A stretch of DNA of 64,000 nucleotides from positions 390,273-454,272 of the forward strand of contig JAQTOU010000001.1 of the NCBI GenBank assembly GCA_028713125.1, written 5' to 3'. Positions 16,315 through 24,306 of the stretch are shown piece after piece. The position numbers and the translations under genes were made by a program. The stretch is from Elusimicrobiales bacterium (GTDB lineage: Bacteria; Elusimicrobiota; Elusimicrobia; Elusimicrobiales; UBA9959). Numbering within the stretch: position 1 is the stretch's first letter; each line of letters starts with the position of its first letter. Under the pieces are notes generated by a model, which was not told the origin of the DNA, ran no database searches, and saw only the letters and a list, made by a program, of their open reading frames with translations.

Positions 16315-16992
16315 TTACTTCGACCAGGTTACGGTAAGGACGTTCCGGCCCGTGTCGTATTTAAAGCTGAAGCCGTTCGCCTCGAGCGGCAGGGCCCTGA
16401 CCGAATACCTCTTCATCTTTTTGGGGAAATCCGCGGAGCAGAGAGAGTCAAGCGTCCCGGCGCCGCTTTCACCGGCCTGGAGGATCCAGGGATGGGTCCG
16501 GCCCAGCATCTCTTTCATCGGGCCGAGCGCGAAGCTCTCGTCCCTGATGGCGAACTCCCCGGCCCGGTCAGGGAGCTTTAGGCTGGAGCCCTTATACCCG
16601 AGGTACTGCCGCCCGGAGCAGACCACCGCCGCCCAGGACAGCACCGAAGTAGAGTCGTTACCTGCGAATTTCACGAAAAGCGAGGACCTGAAGCCGTGGC
16701 GCGACTCCGCGGCCGGGAAGTTTATCTCGGCCCTCCCCCTCTCCGCGTCCACTACCACTTTTATCAGGCTGTCCAGCCGCACCCTGCCGCCGCCGGCGCC
16801 GGAATAATAGCCGGTGTCGGTCGGCGGCGGAACGGCCGGAATATCACCGTCCGCCAGCCTCGGGATAGCGGAGATCCTGGTGGAGTTCAGCCGGAACTCG
16901 GGCAGTTTTTTCTCGCCGAAAGCCGCGCAGGGAAGCGCCAGCGCCAGGGCGAGCGTCAGCCGAAGTTTTTTTCCCGCGCAGTACGTTTTCAT
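16315..16992 (-). CDS. Exported protein of unknown function, last gene of the ECF operon
   Basis: A 225-residue protein with a signal peptide (hydrophobic LTLALALALPCAAFG, cleaved near residue 26). The mature part is predicted to be mostly beta: VRLDSLIKVVVDAERGRAEINFP, SSLFVKFAGNDSTSVLSWAAVVC, and a C-terminal GFSFKYDTGRNVLTVTW. Two cysteines (near CSGRQ and LCSAD) could form a disulfide. I do not recognise the family. It lies 30 bases downstream of the larger CpaB-domain gene on the same strand, so it probably belongs to that unit. Confidence 0.65.
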   Translation of the reverse strand: MKTYCAGKKLRLTLALALALPCAAFGEKKLPEFRLNSTRISAIPRLADGDIPAVPPPTDTGYYSGAGGGRVRLDSLIKVVVDAERGRAEINFPAAESRHGFRSSLFVKFAGNDSTSVLSWAAVVCSGRQYLGYKGSSLKLPDRAGEFAIRDESFALGPMKEMLGRTHPWILQAGESGAGTLDSLCSADFPKKMKRYSVRALPLEANGFSFKYDTGRNVLTVTWSK

Positions 16993-17022
16993 ATAAGCAT
17001 CCCCGCTCCGGACCGCCGGACG

Positions 17023-18060
17023 CTATTTGAACAGTTTGCGGAAACTCGCTATCTCCATGGGGCGCATCTCGAAGTCCCCGGCCGCGCGCCGGACCAGAAC
17101 TATATTATTGGCCTGCGCCAGGCTGAGAGAGGCGTACTGCGCCTCGTTTGGGTTGCACAGGAGCTGCACCACGCCTGATTCTGCGGGCGAGGCCGGCTTG
17201 AACACTTTCACCACCACTACGTTCTGCAATATGGTGGCAGTCACCTTCTCTTTGTCGCCGGAGCCCATGATAGCGTCAAAGGTGACCAGCATGTCCGCCC
17301 TGTCTCCGCTCTCCAGGAAAAGCGCCTGGGAGCCCGAGACTTTAAGGCTTACGCCCCTGTAGCCGGGAAGCACGCGTGCCTCGGGCGCGTATTTAGGTTT
17401 GAATTTCCCCGCGGCGGCCCGGGGAACCTCGAACATCTGGGCGAATACCTCGCGGCTGAGCTTAAGCGCTCCGCCCGCGTTCGTATTAAAGGCCTCTTTA
17501 TCGCCCTTCGCTATGGCCCCGGTCATGCCGTCCAGGCGCTCCATCACGGAGTTCATAGTCGAGAGGAGAGCCGTCCCCCTGCCCCCGAAGGAACCTTCCA
17601 GCCCGGCCCGCGTTATGCGGTCCACGCTCATTATATAGCGCAGGCGCATCTCGTTATACTGCGTTTCAAGGGCGGCGGGAGCCAGGGCGGCCCCTCCCGC
17701 CGAATTAGGAAGGGTCTTCTGGGTCGTGGCGGCCAGCTCGTAAAGGATGGAGAAGGCCGTCTGCCAGAGCTGGGCTTCGCTCAGGTCCCCCTCTTCAGGG
17801 TCTTTCCAGACTTTCCTCTCCCTCATGGCCGGAAGCGACTTCTCGAGCCAGTCGGGCATTTTCAGCGTAGCCTGGGCGCCATGGCACTTTGTCGGGCGCT
17901 CCTTGACCGCCTGGCCGGGCTCGGGCGCGAGGTAATAATAGAGCACCTGCATGTCCTCCGACGCGCAGTTTACCTCCTCCGCCGACGGCGCGGCGGAATA
18001 GCCGGCCGCCGGGATCGCCAGAATTACGGACAGTATCAGGAAGTTGGTCTTGAGTTTCAT
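17023..18060 (-). CDS. Exported protein with C-terminal RcpC/CpaB-like domain (long form)
   Basis: A 345-residue protein with a signal peptide (cleaved near YSA, residue 22) and an N-terminal region of about 200 mostly helical residues of unknown type. The C-terminal domain (about 225-345) looks like the RcpC/CpaB domain of Flp-pilus assembly proteins: PGYRGVSLKV, ESGDRADMLVTFDA, ATILQNVVVVKV and VVQLLCNPNEAQYASLSLAQANNIVLVRR. It ends in EMRPMEIASFRKLFK, nearly matching the end of the next protein (ELHPMEMASFRKLIQ), so the two are paralogues. No pilus genes are nearby. Confidence 0.7.
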   Translation of the reverse strand: MKLKTNFLILSVILAIPAAGYSAAPSAEEVNCASEDMQVLYYYLAPEPGQAVKERPTKCHGAQATLKMPDWLEKSLPAMRERKVWKDPEEGDLSEAQLWQTAFSILYELAATTQKTLPNSAGGAALAPAALETQYNEMRLRYIMSVDRITRAGLEGSFGGRGTALLSTMNSVMERLDGMTGAIAKGDKEAFNTNAGGALKLSREVFAQMFEVPRAAAGKFKPKYAPEARVLPGYRGVSLKVSGSQALFLESGDRADMLVTFDAIMGSGDKEKVTATILQNVVVVKVFKPASPAESGVVQLLCNPNEAQYASLSLAQANNIVLVRRAAGDFEMRPMEIASFRKLFK

Positions 18061-18078
18061 ATATCCTCCTCGGGACCT

Positions 18079-18582
18079 TTACTGGATCAGCTTGCGGAAG
18101 CTGGCCATTTCCATCGGGTGCAGCTCTACGTCGCCGGGAGCGCGCACGACTATGTTTATGCTTCCCTGGGAGATGGCCAGGGCGGCGTACTGGGCTTCTA
18201 CGGGGTTGAGCAGCAGCTCCACCGCGCCGGTCTCGTCCACCTTCTCGGGCCTGCGCACGTTTATCACTACGATGTTCTGAAGAAAAGTGGAGGTGATCTT
18301 CTCCTTGCGCTCCTTCTTATCCTTGTCCTCCATCTTGGCGTCGAAGGTGACCAGGACGTCCACACGGTCCCCCTTCTTCAGGTACAGGAGCTGGTCGCCG
18401 CCGACCGGCAGGGAAGTCCCCCTGTAGCCCTTGACCAGCGCCGAGGTCAGCGCCGCCGGAGTTCCGGTGGAAACCGCCGCCGGCTGCGCCGGGGTCCCGG
18501 CCGCGCTCAACTCCGAAGCGCGCAGCGCCTCAGGCGCCGCTAATACGGCCGCGCACACTATCGCGAGTTTAAGTTTTTTCAT
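18079..18582 (-). CDS. Exported RcpC/CpaB-like domain protein (short form)
   Basis: A 167-residue protein consisting of a signal peptide (cleaved near LRA, residue 22), a short Ala/Pro/Thr linker and one RcpC/CpaB-like domain: KGYRGTSLPV, KKGDRVDVLVTFDA, STFLQNIVVINV and GAVELLLNPVEAQYAALAISQGSINIVVRA. It is clearly homologous to the C-terminal third of the 345-residue neighbour. CpaB proteins normally add a SAF domain and sit in the Flp pilus machine; this one lacks the SAF part. It is co-directional with the anti-sigma-like gene 22 bases upstream. Confidence 0.72.
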   Translation of the reverse strand: MKKLKLAIVCAAVLAAPEALRASELSAAGTPAQPAAVSTGTPAALTSALVKGYRGTSLPVGGDQLLYLKKGDRVDVLVTFDAKMEDKDKKERKEKITSTFLQNIVVINVRRPEKVDETGAVELLLNPVEAQYAALAISQGSINIVVRAPGDVELHPMEMASFRKLIQ

Positions 18583-18604
18583 AAGGCCTCCTTTATCCTC
18601 TCTG

Positions 18605-19249
18605 CTAGATCACCTTGCGCTCAAAAATATCCTCAAGGGAGACGGCGCGCCTTTCAAGCGTGAAAACGCCGCTCCCGGTCTCGAAAACTATCCCTGAGCC
18701 GTTCTCCAGCTTCACCTCGCGGCCCTCGGCCACAACTATAGGCGAGCCGGTCCCGGCCTGGGATATCGGAAAATATTTTATAGGCTCCGTCTCCAGCCTG
18801 GCCATGGGGATAGGCGCGAAAAGGCCTTCGGCCGGCGCGGTATAGGAGGACGCAAGCTCGTCCGGGAGCCGCGACCCGGTTTTTTCCGCGGAAGGAGCGA
18901 GCGGCAGCCGGGCTAACACCGACGGGGCGGCGGGCCCGGGAACGCGCGCGGAATGGCGGCGGGCCAGCGGCAGCAGCGCGACCACCAGAATGGCGGCGGC
19001 CATAGCCGCGCGAGCGTAATTACCGGAGAACAGCGAGCGCGGGGTTTCCACGAAGCCGCCGGCTTCTTTACCGGTGAGCCGCCCACGCAGGCTTTCCTTT
19101 ATAAGGGACCGTCCGCTGAAATCGGCCCGGACCAGTTCCCCGGCCAGCGCCATAGCTCCGCCGTCGGGGCCGAAGGGGCGCTCCTGTCCGCCTTGCAAAA
19201 GAGCGTCCAGCTCCCTGTTAAAAAGTTCCGAAGTTTCCAGCTCGTTCAT
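18605..19249 (-). CDS. Putative membrane anti-sigma factor
   Basis: A 214-residue protein with a short cytoplasmic N-terminal part (about 1-85), one membrane helix (AAMAAAILVVALLPLA, about 87-103) and an extracytoplasmic C-terminal part rich in Ala, Pro and Gly. This layout, and the ATGA overlap with an ECF sigma gene, match a membrane anti-sigma factor. It has no zinc-finger HxxxCxxC motif, so it is not a classic ZAS-type protein. The C-terminal region (VVAEGREVKLENGSGIVFET) looks beta-rich, as if sensing or binding something outside the membrane. The role is inferred from position and topology. Confidence 0.6.
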   Translation of the reverse strand: MNELETSELFNRELDALLQGGQERPFGPDGGAMALAGELVRADFSGRSLIKESLRGRLTGKEAGGFVETPRSLFSGNYARAAMAAAILVVALLPLARRHSARVPGPAAPSVLARLPLAPSAEKTGSRLPDELASSYTAPAEGLFAPIPMARLETEPIKYFPISQAGTGSPIVVAEGREVKLENGSGIVFETGSGVFTLERRAVSLEDIFERKVI

Positions 19250-19755
19250 AACTTTTTTTTACCCTCTAAAAAAGCCTGCATTTTCTTGACCGCTCTATAG
19301 ATCACGATCCCTACATTACTTTCACCGAGCCCTGTCATAAGCGCTATATCGCGGTTGGTCAGTCCCGAGCTGAACTTCAGCGCTATTATATCCCTGGAGC
19401 GGTCATCCAGCGCTCCTACCGCATCAAGGAGCAGCCCCGCTTCCTCTTTCCTTTCAAAGACCGCCTCGGGCCTGGGGTCCGCTCCCGCCCGCTCCGCCGC
19501 GTCCTCCAGCGAGACTTCCCCCCTTCGGTTCCGGGCCCTGGCCCAATCTATCACCGCATTCCGGGCTATCGTGAATAGCCAGGCCTGCACCGGGGACCGC
19601 GCCGGGTCGTAAGTTCCATAGCTGTTCAGCGCGGATTCAAAGATCCTTCCCGTAACATCGTCGCTCTCGGCCGGCAGCCTGACGTGGTAGAGCACGTAAT
19701 TATAGACCTTGCTGAAAAACCGGTCGTATAGTTCGGTAAAAGTCATGGCTGCCAT
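19246..19755 (-). CDS. ECF-type RNA polymerase sigma factor
   Basis: A 169-residue sigma-70 family protein of ECF size. Region 2 spans about 5-75 (LYDRFFSKVYNYVLYHV, DDVTGRIFESAL, VQAWLFTIARNAVIDWAR) and region 4 about 105-160 (LDAVGALDDRSRDIIALKFSSGLTNRDIA, GLGESNVGIVIYRAVKKM). The start may be the first or the fourth codon (both ATG). It is the first gene of a unit of five: sigma factor, anti-sigma-like protein, two CpaB-domain proteins and an unknown exported protein. Such sigma factors usually activate their own operon. Confidence 0.87.
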   Translation of the reverse strand: MAAMTFTELYDRFFSKVYNYVLYHVRLPAESDDVTGRIFESALNSYGTYDPARSPVQAWLFTIARNAVIDWARARNRRGEVSLEDAAERAGADPRPEAVFERKEEAGLLLDAVGALDDRSRDIIALKFSSGLTNRDIALMTGLGESNVGIVIYRAVKKMQAFLEGKKKL

Positions 19756-19813
19756 TCCCTCTATACTAATAAATACGGCGGCCGGGTAAAAGTATTACAT
19801 TCGCCGCCTGCAA

Positions 19814-21742: not shown

Positions 21743-22222
21743 TTAGTCTATATTATTAAAATACTGGGCGAGTTTTGAAGCGGTTTCTTCGACTTCAGGC
21801 GAAAGGCCTTCCTTATAGTCCAGGTTTTTGACCTGTACGCCCAGGATCACCAGCTCGGCGCCGGTATCTTCCTTTACTATCGAAAAAGTGACGGAGAGCG
21901 GGAAGCTGTGGGTGGAAAGCACGGTCTGGCGGTTTATGGCCTCGAGAGGGATGATCCGGAGCTCGCCGGCAGCCCCCCCGAAATTAGCCGCGTCTATAAG
22001 GACGATCTTGTCGGGCTTCCAGTCTATCGCCGTCTGGGCGATGTTCTCAGGGACGGTGCCGGCGTCCATGACCCGCAGGTCCGGCCGCCGCGGCTTAAGC
22101 CGGGAGAAAACGGAAGGGCCGACGCCGTCGTCGGCCCTTAGTTCGCTCCCCAGCGTGATCACCAGCGTCCTGCCCCTGGGCGCCAGCGCGCGGGCCACCT
22201 CTTCAGTCCACGAATTTGACAT
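21743..22222 (-). CDS. Hydrogenase maturation protease (HycI/HyaD family)
   Basis: A 159-residue endopeptidase of the [NiFe]-hydrogenase maturation family. It has VITLGSELRADDGVG with the nickel-sensing acidic residue, VMDAGTVPEN, and KIVLIDAANFGG with the second acidic ligand. A later histidine (STHSFPLS) completes the site. It removes the C-terminal tail of the large subunit after nickel insertion. Its start lies 20 bases inside the end of the large-subunit gene, so the two are translationally linked and the adjacent HydA is its likely substrate. Confidence 0.88.
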   Translation of the reverse strand: MSNSWTEEVARALAPRGRTLVITLGSELRADDGVGPSVFSRLKPRRPDLRVMDAGTVPENIAQTAIDWKPDKIVLIDAANFGGAAGELRIIPLEAINRQTVLSTHSFPLSVTFSIVKEDTGAELVILGVQVKNLDYKEGLSPEVEETASKLAQYFNNID

Positions 22223-23534
22223 CGAGGTAATGGGTCGAGCACGAGATGCACGGGTCGTAGGCCCGCACCAGCATTTCCAGCCGGAGGCGGATCGTCTCCT
22301 TAGGGAGAGTGATTATCTCCGGCAGGAGCTTCGCGAAGTCGTACTCGATATTGTTTATGTTCTGGTTGGTCGGGATGATGCAGTTCGCTTTCTTTATCAT
22401 CCCGGCCGCGTCGGTCTCGTAATTGTGGTAGAGGATGCCGCGGGGAACTTCCACCGCGCCCACGCCGTTGCCGGCGCGCACGGGCACCACCCCTTTCTCG
22501 TTGACCCCGACGGTAACCTGCTGGCTGTAATCCAGGCCGGTCTTCTTCAGGTCCTTCAGGATCTCCAGCGCGTGATAATAACAGTGCACCGTCTCCACTA
22601 TCTGCGCCACGGTGTTCAGGTAAGGGTTATGGCAGACGGGCTTCAGGCCCAGCTCTTTCGCCACGGCCTTGGCCTTGGGATGCAGCTTGTCGGCGTTCAG
22701 GTTGAAGCGGGCCAGCGCGCCCACGAAGAAGCTGTCTCGGGAAAGCTTCGTGAACTTGGCCGAGCTGCGCGGGTCTATGAACTCGTTGGTGGCCTTCTTA
22801 TAATCTTTTTTATTGAAGCGCTTCCCGTCGGTGGAGCCGATCTGGCCCTCCAGCAGCGGGTATTCGGAGTCGTCCGAGACCAGGCCGACGTACTCGGTTT
22901 CGCGGTGGAAGTCGGGGAACTTGAGGGCCTTCGCGAGCTTCAGCGTCTCCGCCATGTCGTCCGCCATGCCCTCGAGGATCGCTATCTGGGCGTCTATGTC
23001 CTTCGGGCGCGGCAGCTTGGTGAAGCCGCCGACTATGGCGCTTATCGGGTGCACATGGCGCCCGACCAGAATGTCGCAGACGTCGTTGGCGGCTTTCTTC
23101 ATGCGCAGCGCGCGGCGGACCACCCCGTTATGCGTCTCTATCAGGGGAACGAAAGACGGCACGCCGAGCACGTCGGGAGCCGCCAGCAGGTAAACGTGGA
23201 GGAGATGGCTGTCCAGGAACTCGTAGTCGAGCAGCAGCTTACGCAGCTTGGTGGTCTGCGCGGAGGGCTTTACGCCCAGCGCATCCTCGGCCGCCTGGAT
23301 GGAGGCCAGCGAGTGGCCGCAGGAGCAGATCCCGCAGATGCGCGAAGTGATATGCTGCGCCTCGAAGACGGAGCGCCCGCGGAGCATCCCCTCGAACAGG
23401 CGGGGCGACTCCACCACGTGAAATTCGCATTTCTCTATCTTCCCGTCCTTCACGTTGACCACGATATTGCCGTGGCCCTCGACGCGGGTGACGTATTCCA
23501 CTTTAATATCGAGATTCTTATTTGCGGTTGACAT
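22203..23534 (-). CDS. hydA: [NiFe] hydrogenase group 3b large (alpha) subunit
   Basis: A 443-residue catalytic subunit. The L1 motif RICGICSCGHS (about residues 60-70) and the L2 motif DPCISCSTH near the C-terminus give the four cysteine ligands of the NiFe centre. Eight residues (YLDVKFVD) follow the final His and should be cut off by the maturation protease encoded next. The ATG at 23534 is chosen because AAGGAGG precedes it; an open 17-codon extension overlaps hydD. With B, G and D subunits it forms a cytoplasmic NAD(P)-linked bidirectional (sulf)hydrogenase. Confidence 0.92.
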   Translation of the reverse strand: MSTANKNLDIKVEYVTRVEGHGNIVVNVKDGKIEKCEFHVVESPRLFEGMLRGRSVFEAQHITSRICGICSCGHSLASIQAAEDALGVKPSAQTTKLRKLLLDYEFLDSHLLHVYLLAAPDVLGVPSFVPLIETHNGVVRRALRMKKAANDVCDILVGRHVHPISAIVGGFTKLPRPKDIDAQIAILEGMADDMAETLKLAKALKFPDFHRETEYVGLVSDDSEYPLLEGQIGSTDGKRFNKKDYKKATNEFIDPRSSAKFTKLSRDSFFVGALARFNLNADKLHPKAKAVAKELGLKPVCHNPYLNTVAQIVETVHCYYHALEILKDLKKTGLDYSQQVTVGVNEKGVVPVRAGNGVGAVEVPRGILYHNYETDAAGMIKKANCIIPTNQNINNIEYDFAKLLPEIITLPKETIRLRLEMLVRAYDPCISCSTHYLDVKFVD

Positions 23535-24306
23535 TGATGTCGCCCTCCTTGCACTTGTTGTACATGTCGAACTTGTTCTTGACAAGTTCGGGCTTGAGGT
23601 TATATTTGCCGATAACGTCGTTGGCGTTTTTAGCCGGGTTCGTCACCTCGCCGCGGCAGCCGTAGCAGATATTCCCGTTATTGACGCACCAGGAATTGCA
23701 GCCCGCCTTCGTCCAGGGGCCGAGGCAGCTTACGCCGCGCTCGTACATGCAGACGTTCTCGTTGAGCTTGCACTCGGAGCAGACCGGGTTGTCCGGCACG
23801 GTATAAGGAAGCCCGCGCAGCGCGTGCTTCAACACCTCTATGAGCTCCGGCGGGTAGATGGGGCAGCCGTTGATGGTGTAATCCACCTTCACCACCTGGT
23901 GGATGGGGCGGGTCGGCGAGCTGGGGAACAGCTTGAAATCCTTGCCGTAGACGGACTGGCGGATCTCGTCGAGGTCGAAGGAGTTCTTCATCCCGTTCAC
24001 GCCGCCGATAGCCGCGCAGGCGCCGTAGGCTATCAGCACCTTTGAGCGCGCTCGGATCTTTTTCAGGCGCTCCTCGGCGTGGTGGTCGGTTATGGAGCCC
24101 TCTATGATCGCGACGTCGTAATCCTTATCGTACTTCTCGCTCATCACCTCGCGGAATTCCACCACGTCGACAGCGCCCAGGATGTCGAGCAGGGACTCTC
24201 CGATGTTCGCCACCTGCAGCTGGCAGCCTTCGCAGCAGGCGAAGTCGAAGAAAGCCACTTTTGGTTTTGCGGCGGTCTTAACGGGTTCTTTCTCTGTTTT
24301 CATCAT
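23518..24306 (-). CDS. hydD: [NiFe] hydrogenase group 3b small (delta) subunit
   Basis: A 262-residue small subunit carrying the electron-relay iron-sulfur clusters. The proximal-cluster motif is FACCEGCQLQ (about residue 20), with GACAAIGGVNG and NGCPIYPPE supplying further ligands. A cysteine-rich C-terminal part (CSECKLNENVC, GVSCLGPW, GCNSWC, CYGCRG) holds the remaining clusters. It passes electrons between HydA and the HydG/HydB pair. Its end overlaps hydA by 17 bases, and the hydA ribosome site lies inside its last codons. Confidence 0.91.
   Translation of the reverse strand: MMKTEKEPVKTAAKPKVAFFDFACCEGCQLQVANIGESLLDILGAVDVVEFREVMSEKYDKDYDVAIIEGSITDHHAEERLKKIRARSKVLIAYGACAAIGGVNGMKNSFDLDEIRQSVYGKDFKLFPSSPTRPIHQVVKVDYTINGCPIYPPELIEVLKHALRGLPYTVPDNPVCSECKLNENVCMYERGVSCLGPWTKAGCNSWCVNNGNICYGCRGEVTNPAKNANDVIGKYNLKPELVKNKFDMYNKCKEGDINVNRK

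Follow-up and report, generated by a model that had tools for sequence, protein, structure and literature searches.

Within a stretch of 64,000 nucleotides from an Elusimicrobiales bacterium (Elusimicrobiota; assembly GCA_028713125.1, contig JAQTOU010000001.1, positions 390,273 to 454,272 of the forward strand), hereafter the window, lies an operon in which a sigma factor of the extracytoplasmic function (ECF) class is followed by a putative membrane anti-sigma factor and by three proteins, A, B and C, that appear to be exported. The central finding is that protein B is a chimera in which two soluble domains known from the machinery of the Tad (Flp) pilus, the N-domain of TadB and the ring domain of CpaB (RcpC), are fused. 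The initial annotation of the region had recognized the RcpC/CpaB-like domain in A and B and had proposed an envelope system without a tie to Flp pili, but it had not identified the first half of B as a TadB N-domain. With regard to ancestry, that proposal is probably wrong, since both halves of B come from proteins of the Tad machine encoded in the same genome, and the TPR repeats of some A proteins and the STN domain of one (see below) are further points against it.

The evidence for the chimera is as follows. Residues 1 to about 225 of protein B, the signal peptide included, match the periplasmic N-domain of the host's own TadB, the platform protein of the inner membrane, with 38% identity (E = 7e-39; 1e-47 in BLASTP). 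Chance can be excluded as the source of this match because the alignment scores 137.8 bits, whereas 200 shuffles yielded at most 5.6 bits. The homology ends about where the first membrane helix of TadB starts (residue 232), and the C-terminal part of B matches the CpaB ring domain. Protein B shares with the TadB of Elusimicrobiota Tad loci the exported helical N-domain with the KVW-DPEEG-SEA-LWQ block and a pair of conserved cysteines but has an RcpC domain where TadB has its T2SSF platform domain and all of its membrane helices. The TadB N-domain is found in 57 of the 59 genomes of the family, mostly fused to TadB, and in a tree of these domains the B group (84/80) and the TadB group (94/89) are moderately supported, with two divergent fusions standing apart. 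Outside Elusimicrobiota, the domain found no match in a plasmid collection, which is a weak test, the chromosomes of other phyla not having been searched.

The AlphaFold model of protein B (mean predicted local distance difference test score, pLDDT, 83) comprises two confident domains, a helical N-domain and an RcpC C-domain, and its only matches in the PDB below E = 1e-3 are the RcpC chains 9gzr_B and 9gzr_A. By sequence profile, protein A matches the RcpC family PF16976 with 35.6 bits, above the gathering score of 28.8 bits, and B, with 24.9 bits, falls just under the threshold; of 25 A-type proteins, all 25 match this domain. The relation to CpaB proposed in the initial annotation is thus borne out, for A by the profile and for B by the fold. 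The alignment of A is confined to residues 108-256 of CpaB, with 43% identity to the host's own protein; hence, A amounts to a CpaB ring domain that has retained the tail but has neither the anchor nor the SAF domain. In A as in B, a signal peptide stands in place of the transmembrane anchor and the SAF/D1 domain of CpaB, and the genes, unlike those of CpaB/RcpC proteins, belong to an ECF operon rather than to a tad locus with a secretin, TadA and TadB/C. Profiles built from the A- and B-type proteins did not match the RcpC of Pseudomonas aeruginosa, which was found by the fold search alone. In the tree of RcpC domains, where few forks are resolved, the true CpaB proteins form one group (support 95/98), and the B domains are placed among the A domains.

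The C-terminal tail common to A and B, in which a docking motif had been suspected, is indeed shared and is kept in all the A and B proteins that were aligned. The host's true CpaB ends with the same tail, and the consensus of the CpaB C-terminus in Elusimicrobiota is GDVELHPMEIASFRKLIK; thus, the tail was inherited from CpaB, and its interpretation as a private docking code of the two proteins has been rejected. In P. aeruginosa, the D2 domain of RcpC, which follows a SAF-like domain and is the counterpart of the part of CpaB kept in A, assembles into a 12-fold ring; the L3/alpha7 element at the C-terminus clasps the neighbouring subunit and is required for oligomerisation (PMC12307814). By analogy, the tail that A and B share with CpaB probably serves as a clasp in ring assembly.

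As for the regulatory genes, the ECF protein has sigma regions 2 and 4 alone, as its class requires (Pfam Sigma70_r2, 1.2e-12; Sigma70_r4_2, 2.6e-07), and, among curated models, is nearest to the BldN family (TIGR02952), although its 127 bits are under the cut-off of that model. The alignment of gene starts suggests that translation begins at the second ATG, at 19746. The product of the second gene is presumed, from its position and topology, to be the anti-sigma factor that pairs with this sigma factor. It has a single hydrophobic segment (residues 77-97), so the layout would consist of a cytosolic N-domain, one helix, a variable proline-rich linker and a conserved C-terminal motif in the periplasm. 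None of 15 orthologues has a Pfam match, neither these sequences nor their alignment contains the HxxxCxxC motif of zinc-type (zf-HC2, ZAS) anti-sigma factors, whose absence had been pointed out in the initial annotation, and no sequence match to an RsbN-like sigma-binding domain was obtained in the PDB or Pfam. Relatives of the N-domain of this protein also occur in proteins of 600-753 residues encoded next to ECF genes (L199, L200, L201, L202), in two cases (L200, L201) fused to von Willebrand factor A/YfbK_C domains. The pair resembles BldN and RsbN in its best curated model and in the lack of the zinc motif, but its ECF score is below the equivalog cut-off, its anti-sigma factor cannot be aligned to known families, and its presumed targets are Tad-derived proteins rather than the developmental genes of BldN. 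Similarly, the order of sigma factor, membrane anti-sigma factor and exported proteins is that of RpoE-RseA-RseB, but the exported proteins are based on RcpC, and no homology to RseB, RseA or MucB was found in the proteins of the operon.

A putative promoter, (T/C)GTAAT-N16-CGTAT or, written otherwise, (T/C)GTAATACTTT-N11-CGTAT, is located just 5' of the ECF gene in 22 of the 22 loci compared, and the sequence flanking it is not conserved. The form found here, TGTAAT-N16-CGTATT, resembles in layout the BldN site, CGTAAC-N16-CGTTGA (PMC2375139), and its position is consistent with autoregulation by the sigma factor. At up to 3 mismatches of 18, the site of the operon is the sole one in the host genome; family-wide, 69 sites were found with at most one mismatch, as compared to 6 for the reversed pattern, and 20 loci with such sites, beyond those of the operon, were opened. 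Homologues of protein C that have been relocated (L097, L102, L103) stand alone, each with its own copy of the motif, two of them (L102, L103) in genus g11, the operons of which are without C; RcpC-only genes (L105, L106) are likewise preceded by the motif, with the -10 variant CGTAA. The motif is absent near the host's own Tad locus, none of the family-wide sites is on a CpaB-carrying contig of these genomes, and no Tad locus was seen with it, so the possibility that the sigma factor controls the Tad locus itself was rejected. The same promoter motif precedes an operon of a paralogous ECF factor (about 165 residues) and a small anti-sigma factor (L087-L095, L100, L104), several loci of which have a second site, mostly about 1.7 kb away (about 2 kb in L092), ahead of a gene for an exported protein of about 150 residues (FVNDPAVLGEWVSVDFV) of unknown family.

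The genes have stayed linked in related genomes. The set of ECF factor, anti-sigma factor and A is present in 25 of the 59 family genomes, always with B except in G052 (in G031, B is without its TadB-N half) and, in 16 of the 25, followed by C. Twelve more loci, from other families of the class, keep the ECF-anti-RcpC arrangement (in L194, anti-RcpC at a contig end), two of them together with B. This pattern indicates that ECF-anti-RcpC is the core, to which B and C are additions. The A proteins vary ahead of the ring domain: those of L112 and L116 have a TPR repeat there, one (L128:4422-5408) is fused to an STN domain (4e-11), which is known from the N-termini of secretins, and another (L127:4278-5372) to a chagasin-type peptidase inhibitor domain (2e-09). 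In addition, L077 and L085 encode a second, distinct ECF factor with an anti-sigma factor of the zinc type (zf-HC2, HxxxCxxC) and, directly downstream, a short protein that consists of RcpC only, with the same ECF-RcpC spacing in L070, L072, L079 and L080; the RcpC-only proteins of this setting have 143-148 residues and an N-terminal hydrophobic segment. Stand-alone RcpC proteins are therefore linked with ECF regulation in two different contexts. A peptide-pattern scan of genome contigs for the RcpC domain returned 78 loci, the titles of which name Elusimicrobiota or a generic bacterium except in one case; by sequence, the host's near relatives are metagenome-assembled genomes of Elusimicrobia. 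This one (L142), titled Candidatus Micrarchaeota, bears a Tad locus of the Elusimicrobiota type and is probably a binning error.

When considering a link to pili, it is important that the host has a complete Tad/Flp locus with a CpaB of its own: on contig C35, the genes for CpaB, a secretin, an ATPase of the TadA type, TadB, what is probably TadC and a TPR protein stand in a row. Protein A has accordingly been rejected as a remnant of a lost CpaB, the more so as it is widely conserved as a stand-alone protein. Across the phylum, 238 of 295 sampled genomes have a CpaB match at E <= 1e-6, a count that may include RcpC-only matches, and within the family the Tad locus is near-universal. Since the latter is the case and the metagenome-assembled genomes (MAGs) are incomplete, the co-occurrence of operon and Tad locus is uninformative. 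Another contig of the host (C15) encodes a chimera of a CpaB N-terminus (transmembrane segment and SAF-like domain) and a TPR part similar to the TPR protein of the Tad locus; it lies about 3.5 kb from a further RcpC-only gene (L015:11599-12117 and L015:7609-8082).

Taken together, these data lead us to propose, with somewhat less than even confidence, that envelope stress frees the sigma factor, whereupon soluble mimics of the Tad ring and platform co-assemble with the machine or cap it. Under this scenario, an envelope signal, possibly related to the Tad machine, would induce the membrane-bound anti-sigma factor to free its sigma factor, which would transcribe its own operon from the BldN-type promoter, so that A, B and C would be secreted. 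In the periplasm, soluble A and B would bind the alignment ring and the platform through their native interfaces and would cap, replace or hold these parts, modulating pilus assembly; B, in particular, could keep a domain resembling TadB-N in place at the ring. Because the ring domain and the clasp have been kept and the membrane anchors lost, A and B could become part of CpaB rings or cap them, and the fusion in B suggests, by a Rosetta-stone argument, a contact of TadB-N with CpaB in the normal machine. The Tad-mimic interpretation is supported by the fact that two unrelated Tad components have given domains to one protein, by the loss of anchor and SAF domain from A with retention of the tail, by the conserved gene order, by the promoter motif and its recurrence at relocated C genes and RcpC singletons, by the second association of an ECF factor with a stand-alone RcpC gene and by the TPR or STN parts of some A proteins. 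A more specific version, which we regard as rather doubtful, is a defence or repair response under ECF control that would target the pilus nanomachine with secreted, anchor-less ring and platform mimics, serving as decoys, caps or plugs, with B revealing the contact between TadB-N and CpaB. Several points weigh against the mimic scenario. The contact of A and B with the Tad machine is something we infer; their RcpC domains have diverged from the CpaB clade, so the ring interfaces may be incompatible; given the lack of the motif at Tad loci, pili are not transcriptionally co-regulated by the sigma factor of the operon; and two operon-bearing MAGs, G012 (96% complete) and G029 (90%), yielded no TadA, CpaB or TadB-N match outside the operon, which gaps in these assemblies could explain.

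The main rival to this scenario, distinctly less probable in our estimate, is sensing of the RseB kind: A and B would be periplasmic co-regulators attached to the conserved C-terminal end of the anti-sigma factor, from which Tad parts that are unassembled or misplaced would titrate them, and this would make the operon a sensor of Tad-assembly stress with feedback. Such a role is suggested by the fact that the genes for A and the anti-sigma factor are always neighbours, including in loci reduced to ECF-anti-RcpC, by the conserved periplasmic motif of the anti-sigma factor behind its variable linker and by a gene order that parallels rpoE-rseA-rseB. The A protein with an STN/FecR_C-like domain fits as well, since in iron signalling STN domains make contact with anti-sigma factors of the FecR type, but this fusion was seen in a single protein; moreover, at sites outside the operon, C and certain RcpC genes are each preceded by a copy of the promoter, as would befit effectors rather than dedicated co-regulators. 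It is also conceivable, although still less probable, that the Tad-derived domains have been exapted and now build a complex of their own in the periplasm or envelope, such as a ring or scaffold, with no physical or functional pilus link, which is the view of the initial annotation. The divergence of A and B from CpaB, the lack of promoter sites at Tad loci, the A proteins that carry a TPR repeat or a fused inhibitor domain of the chagasin type and, as mild evidence, the two MAGs without a detectable Tad locus favour exaptation; the derivation of both halves of B from one machine, the near-universality of Tad in the family and the retention of the ring tail in all the aligned proteins speak against it. 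Finally, A and B might combine with separate SAF proteins, such as the C15 chimera, into a split alignment complex that would serve as a second, inducible conduit similar to the Tad or type II secretion systems. The existence of that chimera near an RcpC-only gene favours this idea, but we consider it highly improbable: the C15 pair is on another contig, where no motif was found, neither a secretin nor an ATPase accompanies the operon, and in B the TadB N-domain replaces a platform rather than supplying one.

The five open reading frames, which are co-directional, as initially reported, occupy the minus strand from 19755 to 16315 and are separated, in gene order, by -4, 22, 18 and 30 nucleotides (Table 1). 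Protein C, described at the outset as exported and beta-rich, is conserved in 16 other loci (33-63% identity); its model, with a pLDDT of 68, is predicted to be beta-rich and, weak as it is, found no PDB match under E = 0.001. It is best regarded as a co-regulated, presumably exported envelope protein of unknown family. The operon is flanked by hypA, a Mrp-type ATPase gene, ybaB and a permease gene; in agreement with the initial annotation, no SAF domain, cpaC or tadA adjoins it, and the gene set of a Tad/Flp locus (ATPase, secretin, platform, pilin) is not present around it. By eye, genes for the large subunit of a hydrogenase and for a protease of hydrogenase maturation are seen 5' of the operon (window positions 21743-24306), with hypA on its 3' side; these are probably unrelated to it.

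Table 1. Features of the ECF operon, in window coordinates
Feature	Position	Strand	Basis
Putative ECF promoter TGTAAT-N16-CGTATT (TGTAATACTTTTACCCGGCCGCCGTATT)	19772..19799	-	Conserved 5' of the ECF gene in 22/22 loci
ECF sigma factor, BldN-like	19246..19755	-	Pfam r2/r4_2; TIGR02952 as best model; start/upstream alignment
Putative membrane anti-sigma factor	18605..19249	-	4-nucleotide overlap with ECF gene; topology; conservation pattern
Protein A: CpaB/RcpC ring domain with the C-terminal tail of CpaB, behind a signal peptide	18079..18582	-	PF16976; CpaB alignment
Protein B: TadB N-domain (1-~225), CpaB/RcpC ring domain with tail (~230-345)	17023..18060	-	TadB and CpaB matches; model; 9gzr
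Protein C: predicted exported, beta-rich, unknown family, candidate regulon member	16315..16992	-	Conservation; relocated copies keep the promoter motif

No operon of this type was found described in the open-access literature on CpaB/RcpC in connection with ECF or anti-sigma factors. The regulatory module is of a known kind, and its chimeric, Tad-derived output appears to be new. Little is known about how Tad pili are switched, repaired or monitored in the envelope; for Elusimicrobiota we found nothing on this subject. An ECF switch that appears to be placed over secreted, anchor-less Tad parts suggests an undescribed way to control or monitor the Tad machine. The conserved sigma regulon of Tad-derived soluble parts offers a testable handle on this problem, A and B being small, secreted and natively truncated, and the fusion in B points to a specific contact between the TadB N-domain and the CpaB ring that is open to crosslinking or complex modelling.

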